From assembly GCA_026004935.1 (NCBI GenBank), contig BPKC01000001.1:1217491-1281490 (forward strand): a DNA stretch of 64,000 bases, given 5' to 3'. The DNA comes from Rhodothalassiaceae bacterium (lineage in GTDB: Bacteria; Pseudomonadota; Alphaproteobacteria; Sphingomonadales; Rhodothalassiaceae). The stretch's first letter is position 1. Every line of letters begins with the position of its first letter. Positions 15,003 through 22,452 of this stretch are shown here, piece after piece. The notes below the pieces were generated by a model, which worked only from the letters and a program-made list of their open reading frames with translations, ran no database searches and was not told the DNA's origin. The translations under genes and the position numbers were made by a program.

Positions 15003-15036
15003 GGAGAGGGCCGCGTGAGCGGCCCTCTCCTTTTTT
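15003..15036 (+). terminator. Rho-independent terminator of rpsA
   Basis: A perfect 12-bp stem (15003-15014 with 15019-15030), a GTGA tetraloop and a TTTTTT run. It lies 63 bases after the rpsA stop. It is the clearest plus-strand terminator in the window and ends the rpsA message. Confidence 0.95.
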
Positions 15037-17844: not shown

Positions 17845-18921
17845 ATGAGCGAACCTGGCGCACCGGTCATCGCGCAGAGGAAGCCGTATCTCGTGCGGCT
17901 GGCGAAGAAGGGGCGCACCTACTGGTGGTGCGCCTGCGGGCGGAGCCGCAGGCAGCCCTTCTGCGACGGCTCGCACAAGGGCACCGGCATCGAGCCCGTC
18001 GCCTATGTGGCGAAGGAGGACGGCGAGGAGGTGCTCTTTTGCGGCTGCAAGCACACCCGCCATCCGCCGCTGTGCGACGGCACGCACAACAATCTGGGCG
18101 ACACCTACGAGGAGGCGAGCGCCGACGAGATCGCGGCCACCGCCGACATTCCCGTCACGCCCTTCGATGCGACGGGCAGGGCCGCGCTCGACGGCGGCTG
18201 CTTCGTGCTGCGCCCGGCCGGGCGCTGGCGGGATCTGGGCGGCGGCTGGCGCATGGAGCCGCTGATCACGGCGGCCGACGGGGCCCGTCATCTCGCCCAG
18301 TACCGCCTGCTCGCGGAAGGTACGACGGCCCCGCTCACCTTCGGCGCGGAATCCGAGAGCGTGCTGTTCGCCCGCGCCGGCGCCGGAGAGATCCGCATCG
18401 CCGGCCGGCCCTGCCCGCTGGCGCCGCTCACCGGCTATCATGTGCGACCGGGCGAGACGGTGGAACTGCGCGCAAGCCCCGATGGCCCGGCCGAGATCAT
18501 CGCGACCCAGTGCCCGCTCGGCGAGGTGCCGCGGGTCGCCGAACGGGCGGTCCACGGTGCGGCGGATGCGGACGACGGTCTGCGCTGGCGGCGTTTCGAT
18601 CCCGATCGGCGCGAGCGGATGGCCGACCGCTTCTATCAGGTTCTGGTCGGCCCGGAGACGGGCTCGGAGCAGGTGACGCTGTTCATCGGCGAGATTCCGC
18701 GCTCGCGCGCGGCCGGCCATCGCCATCTCTACGAGGAGGCGATCGTGATCCTTTCGGGCACCGGCTTCATGTGGACCGAGCGCGCCCGCGCCGAGGTGCG
18801 CCCCGGCGATATCATCTTCCTGCCGGCGCGCCAGATCCACTCGCTCGAATGCACCGACCCCGCCGGGATGCGGCTGGCCGGCGCCTTCTACCCGGCCGGC
18901 AGCCCGGCGATAAACTACTGA
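17845..18921 (+). CDS. Tandem CDGSH iron-sulfur / cupin fusion protein
   Basis: 358 residues from ATG 17845 with AGGAGG upstream. Two CDGSH-type [2Fe-2S] motifs stand at the N-terminus: C29-x-C31...C40-DGS-H44, and C66-x-C68...C77-DGT-H81, each with the 3Cys-1His ligand set. The rest holds a cupin-like region (about 150-225) and a clearer cupin near the C-terminus with GHRHLYEEA (two His and a Glu), GTGFMW and a late QIHSLE histidine. It is a predicted cytoplasmic metal protein, perhaps a redox-sensing or ligand-modifying enzyme. The two-CDGSH N-terminus resembles known tandem CDGSH proteins. The attached cupins are the unusual part. Expressed separately from its neighbours. Confidence 0.85.
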   Translation: MSEPGAPVIAQRKPYLVRLAKKGRTYWWCACGRSRRQPFCDGSHKGTGIEPVAYVAKEDGEEVLFCGCKHTRHPPLCDGTHNNLGDTYEEASADEIAATADIPVTPFDATGRAALDGGCFVLRPAGRWRDLGGGWRMEPLITAADGARHLAQYRLLAEGTTAPLTFGAESESVLFARAGAGEIRIAGRPCPLAPLTGYHVRPGETVELRASPDGPAEIIATQCPLGEVPRVAERAVHGAADADDGLRWRRFDPDRRERMADRFYQVLVGPETGSEQVTLFIGEIPRSRAAGHRHLYEEAIVILSGTGFMWTERARAEVRPGDIIFLPARQIHSLECTDPAGMRLAGAFYPAGSPAINY

Positions 18922-20393: not shown

Positions 20394-21557
20394 ATGGGCA
20401 AGACCGCAACCGCCGCCGCCGAGACCGGCCTCATGCGCGACCACTTCCCGATTCTCGCGCATACCACCTATGTGAACGCCTGTTCGCACGGGGCGCTGTC
20501 GCGGGAGGTGGAGGCGGCCTACCACGCCTATCTCGCCCGCCGGCACGAGGTGGGCGCGGACTGGGATGGCTGGGTCGCGCTTCAGGAGGAGGTGCGTGCG
20601 CTCTTCGCCCGCCTCGTCGGCGCGGAACCGGACGAGATCGCGATCGCGACCTCGGCCTCGGCCGCGCTCGACAGCCTCGTGAGCGCGCTGAAGCCCGAGC
20701 CCGGACGCAACCGCATCGTCCTCTCGGACTACGAGTTTCCGACCGTGGGCCAGATCTGGCACGCCCAGATCCCCCGCGGCTTCGAGATCGTGCGGGTGCG
20801 CGAGGACGCCGACAACCGCATCCCGCTCGCCCGCTTCGCCGAGGCGATCGACGAGCGCACGGCGGTCGTCTCCATCGCCCACGTCTGCTACCGCCACGGC
20901 GGCGTCAACCGCGTGCGCGAGATCGCGGAGCTCGCCCATGCCGCCGGCGCCATCGTCGTGCTCGACGCCTACCAGGCGCTCGGCCAGATTCCGGTGGATG
21001 TGCGCGCGCTCGGTGTCGACGCGCTGATCGGCGGGGCGCTCAAGTATCTGCTGGCAAGCGCCGGTCTGGGTTTCCTTTACGTGCGCCGGGGGCTCGTGGA
21101 GAGGCTCTCGCCCTATGTGACGGGCTGGTTCGCGCAGGCCGACATCGCGGCGATGGATCCCTGGCATCACGAGCCGGCGCCGAGCGCCCGGCGCTTCGAG
21201 ACGGGCACGCCGCCGGTGCCGAATCTCCATGCCGGAAAGGCGGGGCTCGAGCTCGTGCTCTCGCTCGGTCTCGCCCGCATTGCGGCCGCCATCGACCGGC
21301 TGACGACACGGCTGGTGGAGGAACTGGGCGAGCTCGGCGCGCAAATCGCGACGCCTCTGGGAAAGGGCGAACACGGCGCGCTCATCGCGGTGCGTTCGCG
21401 CGACCCGGAAGCGCTTGTCGCCCGGCTCAAGGGCGAACGGATCATCACCTCCTCGCGCGACGGAAACCTGCGGATCTCGCCCCATTTCTACAACGACGAG
21501 GACGACATCGCGCGGCTGATCACGGCGCTCGCCCGCCACCGCGATCTCCTCGCCTAG
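20394..21557 (+). CDS. Class V aminotransferase-fold PLP enzyme
   Basis: 387 residues. The fold is that of cysteine desulfurase, kynureninase and isopenicillin-N epimerase-like enzymes. PLP contacts visible: SASAALDSL for the phosphate, H163 in SIAHVCYRHGG, D191 and Q194 in VVLDAYQALG, and the Schiff-base lysine K217 in LIGGALKYLL. There is no conserved catalytic cysteine loop of a SufS/NifS type, so desulfurase activity is unlikely. It is in an operon with the NSS transporter (13-base gap), suggesting catabolism or racemisation of an imported amino acid. Reaction uncertain. Confidence 0.88.
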   Translation: MGKTATAAAETGLMRDHFPILAHTTYVNACSHGALSREVEAAYHAYLARRHEVGADWDGWVALQEEVRALFARLVGAEPDEIAIATSASAALDSLVSALKPEPGRNRIVLSDYEFPTVGQIWHAQIPRGFEIVRVREDADNRIPLARFAEAIDERTAVVSIAHVCYRHGGVNRVREIAELAHAAGAIVVLDAYQALGQIPVDVRALGVDALIGGALKYLLASAGLGFLYVRRGLVERLSPYVTGWFAQADIAAMDPWHHEPAPSARRFETGTPPVPNLHAGKAGLELVLSLGLARIAAAIDRLTTRLVEELGELGAQIATPLGKGEHGALIAVRSRDPEALVARLKGERIITSSRDGNLRISPHFYNDEDDIARLITALARHRDLLA

Positions 21558-21575
21558 CCGCCGCCGTCACAAGGC

Positions 21576-21735
21576 AAAAAAAGCCGGCCCGGACAAAGGG
21601 GGGCACCGGGCCGGCCAGTCGCACGCTTCGCAAAGGGAGTGAGCGAGAGAAAGCGGCCGCCCATCAAAGGGGGCTGGTCGGCGACCGCCTCGTGCCTCAC
21701 TCACGAGGCGATCTTCATGCTTCAAGGACCGTGCC
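21576..21735 (-). ncRNA. Candidate small RNA with C-rich loops and strong terminator
   Basis: On the minus strand a 9-bp hairpin (21686-21694/21702-21710) is followed by three short C-rich stretches ending CCCTTTG. One of them sits in the 13-base loop of a 10-bp GC-rich stem (21606-21615/21583-21592). Seven T residues follow that stem (A run at 21576-21582). No minus-strand gene lies upstream that would need this terminator: the nearest minus-strand gene ends at 22471, with a plus-strand gene in between. Pyrimidine-rich anti-Shine-Dalgarno loops are common in alphaproteobacterial small RNAs. The 5' end is a guess. A weak promoter-like TTGCAG...TTTTGC pair lies near 21750-21778. Confidence 0.45.
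21583..21615 (-). terminator. Rho-independent terminator on the minus strand
   Basis: A 10-bp perfect stem (GCCGGCCCGG/CCGGGCCGGC) with a 13-base C-rich loop, followed on the minus strand by TTTTTTT (bases 21582-21576). On the plus strand the T-run would precede the stem, so it is not a terminator for the aminotransferase gene. It defines the 3' end of the candidate small RNA. Confidence 0.85.
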
Positions 21736-21999
21736 ATCCTGCAAAAGCTGGAAAAGCGCGATGCTGCAATGACTTGCGCCGAGGCCCCGAGACGGGATCG
21801 GCGATCGTGTCGCAATCTGCAGCCGATTGTCGCAGGGGCATTCGCAAATTGCATAAAATTTTCATGAATGGCGGCGCCGGGCGGTCGCCGACCACCGCGA
21901 AAGATTTCGTTAAAGCCTGTCGCGGACAATGACGGGCGCAAAGCCGCCGCCTCAGGCGGCGCGGGAGCGCGAAGGCAAGGGAAGGCAAGGAACGACGGA

Positions 22000-22452
22000 G
22001 TGTTCCGCCGCTCGTCGGGACGGAGGACGGATCGGGTTTTCGCGGCCGGCGTGCGGGCGGCGATGCTGGTGGGTTGTCTCGCCCTTGCGCTCGCCGGCAT
22101 CAGGGGACCGGCTGCGGCGCAGGAAACGGTCGAGGATGAAGGCATCCGCTACATCGATGTGACTCCCGTCGACGTGCCGCTGACCCGCGGCGGATTCATC
22201 CAGGGCCATGTCGTGATCCGGCCGACGCTGAAGGTGGAAACGCCGGCCGCCCGCGCGCGGGTGGAGGAGATGCTGCCGAAGCTCGAGGCCCGCTTTCTGA
22301 TGGCGGTGAGCGAGCTTGCCCGCTACGACATCGAGGCGGAGGCTCCCATCGACACGGGGCTCGTGCGCGCGCGTCTGCAGCAGGAGGCGGATGCGGTGCT
22401 CGGCGCGGGTATCGCGCAGGTCTTCATCATCGAGGCGATGACGACGCGCTGA
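22000..22452 (+). CDS. FliL-like secreted or anchored protein
   Basis: 150 residues from the GTG at 22000 (AAGGAA upstream). An ATG at 22063 is an alternative, and a longer frame from 21868 is unsupported. The N-terminus is basic, then LVGCLALALAGIRGPAAAQE forms a signal peptide or anchor. The mature part has DVPLTRGGFIQGHVVIRPTL, a helical ARARVEEMLPKLEARFL and a C-terminal LGAGIAQVFIIEAMTTR, the beta-helix-beta pattern of FliL-like proteins. No flagellar genes are near, so a flagellar role is not implied. Function unknown. It converges on the patatin-like gene with an 18-base gap. Confidence 0.65.
   Translation: MFRRSSGRRTDRVFAAGVRAAMLVGCLALALAGIRGPAAAQETVEDEGIRYIDVTPVDVPLTRGGFIQGHVVIRPTLKVETPAARARVEEMLPKLEARFLMAVSELARYDIEAEAPIDTGLVRARLQQEADAVLGAGIAQVFIIEAMTTR

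Follow-up and report, generated by a model that had tools for sequence, protein, structure and literature searches.

A predicted small RNA of ~135 nt, delimited by its fold and by the covariance model R1 (21576–21710, minus strand), was located in the window, that is, the whole 64-kb stretch of DNA analysed, to which all coordinates refer. We consider it probable that this locus encodes a LuxO/sigma54-dependent sRNA with C-rich pairing loops, which is analogous but not homologous to the Qrr RNAs. This reading draws on comparison between genomes, which points to a conserved fold and loop, to a promoter accompanied by enhancer boxes and to co-occurrence with a LuxO-like protein. According to the mechanism that we infer, a phosphorylated LuxO-like response regulator would bind dyad boxes lying roughly 85–140 bp upstream and, once bound, would drive transcription of the trans-acting RNA of ~135 nt from its sigma54 promoter. 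The RNA would fold as a long hairpin displaying a C-rich loop, the loop of its terminator would repeat the C-rich motif, and these loops would pair with G-rich sites of mRNAs, by which translation or stability may be altered. A small RNA with C-rich loops had been proposed here in a first-pass annotation, and this proposal is strongly supported by the comparative data, namely the relatives, the model, the loop motif and the covariation of the stem. The sigma54 promoter was absent from that annotation and was found in the present work.

The predicted sRNA and its relatives

The 3′ end of the predicted RNA is formed by an intrinsic terminator hairpin (21583–21615, minus strand), the arms of which (21615–21606 and 21592–21583) make 10 perfect pairs around a 13-nt loop and are followed by a T7 tail (21576–21582, minus strand); the 10-bp stem and the seven Ts had been noticed at first pass. 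Perfect hairpins of at least 9 bp followed by at least six T residues occur only once on each strand of the 64 kb: the one on the minus strand is this terminator, while the other is located at 15031 on the plus strand. In 40 sequences simulated from the window with an order-1 Markov model, both the number of such terminators and that of same-strand CAAAGGG triples within 120 nt were zero. The hairpin at 15031 (plus strand) is a second strong terminator-like structure with a 12-bp stem and 6 T. A scan for sigma70 promoters and for terminators found neither; for the terminators it allowed loops of 3–8 nt only. The T tail is absent in G001, a genome of the same genus, and in the second copy of the sRNA in the window's own genome, G000 (G000:C1:2804861, plus strand). 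A stem with a C-rich loop at the place of the terminator was also seen in G001, G004, G005, and G006.

The fold of 21572–21760 (minus strand) gave a z-score of −3.5 compared with shuffled sequences, and the values in seven copies were uneven (−3.15, −2.03, +0.57 in G004, −7.53, −4.65, −2.46, and −6.96). In the best predicted fold, the RNA forms a single long, irregular hairpin (21704–21639, minus strand), which has an outer and an inner stem and exposes the C-rich terminal loop GACCAGCCCCCTTTGATG (21662–21679, minus strand). The 9-bp hairpin reported earlier (CGCCTCGTG-AGTGAGG-CACGAGGCG, 21686–21710, minus strand, with arms at 21710–21702 and 21694–21686) does exist, and its 7-nt loop is purine except for one T, but it did not hold as an isolated structure: it is an alternative to the outer stem of the long hairpin. 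In most relatives, CCTCNNGAG.. stands where the window has this 5′ hairpin. The three CCCTTTG elements were found as described, one in the terminal loop (21665–21671), the second in the linker (21631–21637) and the third in the loop of the terminator (21594–21600, all on the minus strand). The exact repetition of CCCTTTG was seen in the window copy only; the relatives share the C-rich loop, which in most of them contains CGACCCCCA.

The RNA is flanked by a convergent class-V aminotransferase-like gene (20394–21557, plus strand), regarded as a neighbour outside the system, and by a divergent gene with an uncertain start codon (22060–22452, plus strand), the product of which is distantly FliL-like. 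The FliL matches are weak (0.005 for the window protein in NCBIfam and 4.6e-05 for its relative in G012). This small FliL-like protein is kept next to the sRNA across several families. Further away, the region 17845–18921 (plus strand) encodes a protein in which two CDGSH iron-binding motifs are joined to a cupin domain.

Searching Rfam at the gathering score yielded only two tRNAs and no sRNA in the window, and zero matches in five loci of the RNA family. Even in a permissive search, the best named alphaproteobacterial sRNA was ar7, for which the score was 12.0 bits and the cut-off 60. The earlier classification of the locus as an alphaproteobacterial stress RNA found no support: no Rfam sRNA family rose above threshold, and the locus has a sigma54-type promoter accompanied by enhancers like those of LuxO. 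Judged by sequence comparison, the locus very probably specifies a real small regulatory RNA belonging to an undescribed family.

DNA similarity detected matches in five of 60 genomes: the window's own, G001 and G004, in which the true site was hit, and G039 and G005, in which the match lay elsewhere. The latter two matches were taken as chance by eye, and the true copy of G005 was recovered via synteny. The G001 copy is 72% identical over 139 bases and flanked by the same two genes, while in G004 the 3′ part of the site matches at 74%. The divergent small gene gave 22 matches in all, from which 10 loci were fetched. Seven of these 10, including G000, G001, and G004, contained a sigma54-type site (TGGCAC-N5-TTG) pointing away from the small gene, and behind it a hairpin, whose loop reads for example CUCGACCCCCA, and then a terminator. 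Alignment of the relatives, which had been suggested as a check, showed the promoter, the C-rich loop and a covarying inner stem.

Within the order, a pattern derived from these features found matches in 66 of 396 genomes, with many hits in the large family f6. The f6 matches were taken as chance by eye, and R1 found nothing in f6 below E 0.005. In a collection of named genomes the pattern matched 21 records, including Kordiimonas gwangyangensis, K. laminariae, K. sediminis, K. marina, and Pseudokordiimonas caeni; 17 of the 21 matched R1 at E ≤ 4.5e-14, and four from distant groups were rejected (10.0, 8.5, and 6.9 bits to R1, and no match for one). R1 was built from 29 aligned copies and is mostly a sequence profile with seven pairs that includes the promoter. 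It matches the window locus (C1:1239113–1239226, minus strand) with 47.5 bits, a score given by a copy that belonged to the training set. At E ≤ 1e-6, R1 detected the RNA in 49 of the 114 sampled genomes of the order, of which 28 gave training sequences and 21 did not. In the sample of the class outside the order, the best of 384 other genomes reached E 0.00186 with strict filters, which is chance level. As far as sampled, the RNA family thus appears to be confined to this order.

The C-rich loop is the most constrained part of the sRNA. In family f5 of the order, which we took as Kordiimonadaceae, CTCGACCCCCAATCG was present in 29 of 29 genomes (reversed control: 0), and 17 consecutive loop bases were invariant across 21 aligned copies; outside Kordiimonadaceae, the loop sequence differs. 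In the same 21 sequences, 96.3% of the cells of the 11-bp inner stem were paired and 13 cells were double-changed. The covariation of the inner stem was 0.297 compared with 0.200 in shuffled alignments (0 of 500 as high) and with a maximum of 0.121 when the stem was slid. Five pairs changed on both sides compared with 2.2 in the shuffles, 12 of 500 of which reached five, and the observed value of pair types was reached in 37 of 500. The outer stem was judged from single folds only. Hairpins with the same loop but without a sigma54 site were also seen at dispersed sites: five in four f5 genomes (L117, L118, L119, L120, and L121) and a sixth in G101 (L122), which has an undetermined base. A promoter-like site, TTGACA-18-AATACT, lies before one dispersed hairpin (1 found vs. 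0.6 in shuffles).

The promoter, its enhancer boxes and the candidate activator

The sigma54 −24/−12 promoter TGGCACGGTCCTTGAA (21721–21736, minus strand) was recognised by pattern and alignment, and transcription would start near 21710. TGGCAC and TTG are invariant in 29 aligned copies, most of which were found by a pattern demanding both; the site in seven of the 10 loci retrieved via the divergent gene does not depend on that pattern. Four further relatives found by R1 carry TGGCAT, and in two of these the −12 part is other than TTG. In PMC10162802 and PMC11443567, the LuxO enhancer of the Vibrio qrr genes is given as TTGCAWWWTGCAA. Upstream of the window promoter, a LuxO-type box with two mismatches to this sequence (ATGCAATTTGCGA, 21842–21854, minus strand) lies at −118 from the sigma54 hexamer, and a weaker box with three mismatches (CTGCAGATTGCGA, 21810–21822, minus strand) lies at −86. 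A possible but weak IHF-like site, CAAGTCATTGCAG (21764–21776, minus strand), was noticed by eye between enhancer and promoter.

Sites within two mismatches of TTGCAWWWTGCAA were found upstream of 33 of 34 family promoters, altogether 67 sites compared with a mean of 3.75 and a maximum of 8 in shuffled sequences. In 28 loci, 56 LuxO-type sites fell at −160 to −70 compared with 5 in the rest (outside −260 to 0), and 27 of the 28 loci had a box, while such a site occurred in only eight of 638 GC-matched windows. Relative to the hexamer, the sites cluster near −98, −121, and −140. With box and promoter joined in a composite pattern (TGCAWWWTGC, 78–108 bases, TGGCAY-N5-TTG), the single match in G000 was at the window sRNA, and the reversed control gave 0 in 114 genomes. 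The second copy in G000 has weaker boxes with two and three mismatches and does not match the composite pattern. Of 384 other genomes sampled in the class, 22 contain the pattern as well; it is therefore not perfectly specific, and the additional matches may represent background or other regulons.

A candidate for the activator is a LuxO-like sigma54 activator of 473 aa in G000, which reaches 603.5 bits with the LuxO model NF041946 and 418.9 with that of NtrC, the next best. Two activators of G010 behave alike (598.3 and 555.7 bits to the LuxO model). The NCBIfam cut-off for LuxO, 800 bits, was reached in none of the 114 genomes. The best solved relative of the LuxO-like protein is LuxO 5ep0, and by both the model scores and the structure match the G000 protein resembles LuxO more than it does the other sigma54 activators. 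For V. cholerae LuxO, Ser423 and Ile425–Leu429 are listed as critical in the DNA-reading helix; aligned by eye, the helix STLYRKL of the G000 protein fits these residues, with Leu in place of Ile425.

Co-occurrence was determined in the same 114 genomes with thresholds of E ≤ 1e-130 for the LuxO-like protein and E ≤ 1e-6 for the RNA. Both were present in 46 genomes, the RNA only in three, the protein only in eight and neither in 57, an association that is inflated by shared ancestry, which the Fisher value ignores. The RNA-only genomes were G001 (89% complete), G110 (64%), and G013 (100%). In G013, which had no LuxO-like match, the RNA is retained (L126, about 2470–2620) with neither box nor sigma54 site, and a weak sigma70-like site, TTGTCT-N17-TATATT, was found in the sRNA region (2 found vs. 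1.4 in shuffles). Among the protein-only genomes, hand inspection revealed the RNA in G006 (L010), G077 had a partial R1 match (E 0.0013), G074 is 85% complete and G088 90%, and the LuxO scores of four f6 genomes (G023, G067, G070, and G076) were low, at 506–534 bits. Neither sRNA copy of G000 adjoins luxO. Words resembling GCATTTTGCA were noticed by eye near the start codons of luxO-like genes (L194, L195, L191, L198, and L203), perhaps indicating autoregulation.

The same promoter could serve another activator (NtrC, NtrX, FlbD, a PspF-like or a PEP-CTERM-type regulator), and the sRNA would then be connected to nitrogen or flagella, which we regard as unlikely. Such proteins are indeed encoded in G000: FlbD (799.8 bits, over the cut-off of 750), a PspF-like activator (489.3 bits, over 443.55), a PEP-CTERM-type regulator (360.2 bits, under 502.6) and two further activators in tandem, taken as NtrC/NtrX by eye; moreover, the distantly FliL-like divergent neighbour would hint at FlbD. 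However, the boxes match the motif of LuxO, with which alone they were compared, and sigma54 activators were present in 11 of the 11 genomes tried irrespective of the RNA, whereas the LuxO-like ones track the RNA. The enhancer motif and the co-occurrence led us to set aside control by FlbD or NtrC, to which the FliL-like neighbour had pointed, and a LuxO-like regulator is the activator that we prefer.

The C-rich loops and their possible partners

Pairing of the sRNA with G-rich mRNA sites is plausible. In family f1 the loop of the terminator also contains C-rich motifs, and all three elements of the window copy read CCCTTTG; on few copies, this suggests that the C-rich sites change together. 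A target search for 10-nt complements within 25 nt of an ATG in 29 genomes gave 58 matches in 25 of the 29 genomes vs. 33 in the reversed control. One target string recurs: TTGGGGGTCG, complementary to the sRNA loop, was found in G066 and G042, which belong to one genus (L212 and L213, at 1501 in both). In these two congeneric species it stands eight bases before the ATG of a gene for an HlyD-type membrane-fusion protein, making this gene a weak candidate target.

Repeated C-rich loops may act in a different manner, as in CrcZ, which titrates a protein through such loops. Titration of a protein by the RNA instead of mRNA pairing would fit the three C-rich elements of the window copy, the hairpin standing twice in tandem in G069 and the 17 consecutive invariant loop bases in the 21 Kordiimonadaceae copies, and the target search established no mRNA target; nevertheless, no C-binding partner was identified and the loop differs in sequence outside Kordiimonadaceae, and we find this explanation unlikely. 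A cis element, the 3′ end of one of the two neighbouring genes or a gene for a small protein can hardly account for the locus: mechanical ORFs span the region on both strands, but the RNA has its own conserved promoter and terminator, its loop is conserved while its stems covary and vary in length, and it is divergent from one flanking gene and convergent with the other.

Polysaccharide genes and the relation to known systems

Ten loci were inspected in which the composite promoter belongs to something other than the sRNA, and nine proteins, encoded behind nine promoters of eight of these loci, were scanned. Eight of the nine proteins were polysaccharide enzymes or transporters according to Pfam (pyruvyl transferase, sugar transferase with an export domain, WecG type, and polysaccharide synthesis), while L259 had no match. 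The promoters combining a LuxO box with a sigma54 site before polysaccharide genes are in L258, L250, L253, L267, L268, L248, L243, and L255 (genomes G010, G022, G081, G076, G070, G045, G057, and G106). Most of them have a LuxO-like gene no more than about 10 kb away, which in f5 is the lower-scoring second one. In G010, this second LuxO-like gene comes after one for a hybrid histidine kinase that contains an Hpt domain. Based on their position, we infer that these promoters could form a SypG-like branch, with a division of labour between the two regulators.

In Vibrio fischeri, SypG controls polysaccharide genes. LuxO and SypG of this species are related activators whose enhancer motifs overlap, as described in PMC10162802, and the Kordiimonadaceae are alike in having a second LuxO-like gene near LuxO-box and sigma54 promoters of polysaccharide genes, a likeness by position. 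The similarity to Qrr of Vibrionaceae includes the sigma54 promoter, a candidate LuxO-type activator, the enhancer TTGCAWWWTGCAA about 100 bp upstream and the occurrence of multiple copies in some genomes (G000 has two). Unlike Qrr, the window sRNA has no Rfam match, is a single long hairpin that exposes a C-rich loop, and belongs to Alphaproteobacteria; neither copy in G000 stands beside luxO, and sequence kinship to Qrr was not detectable. A C-rich sRNA of Agrobacterium, reportedly named PmaR, is alike by description: it has C-rich motifs (PMC6234868), which could pair with G-rich sites of mRNAs.

The accessible text of PMC524169 reports LuxO homologues in most Proteobacteria, with a reciprocal best hit in Bradyrhizobium, and LuxU and LuxP only in Vibrio; within this text, an sRNA or an enhancer belonging to the homologues outside Vibrio goes unmentioned. 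Among the matches listed, subscription literature excepted, there were no LuxO-driven or Qrr-like sRNAs outside Vibrionaceae. No literature joining LuxO with Kordiimonadales was found, and the search for Kordiimonas with sRNA gave one paper, which deals with coral isolates. Thus, LuxO homologues outside Vibrio were already known, while a LuxO-driven sRNA there appears to be new among the matches listed.

We lean towards the broader view that a full LuxO–sigma54–sRNA circuit exists in Alphaproteobacteria, in which one LuxO-like regulator would drive a C-rich sRNA unrelated to Qrr and its paralogue, using the same motif, would serve polysaccharide genes, as LuxO and SypG do in Vibrio. Two origins would then be conceivable: a transfer of LuxO from one class to the other, with recruitment of a new RNA, or two independent events in which an sRNA came under LuxO control. 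If this holds true, the path from a phosphorelay to LuxO and to an sRNA would be a circuit reused by bacteria, and a second, unrelated LuxO-driven sRNA would make it possible to ask which signal is relayed by these cells. The RNA with its 17 invariant loop bases offers a handle for an experimental target search, and G013, which has the RNA without LuxO and without a LuxO-type promoter, provides a natural comparison.
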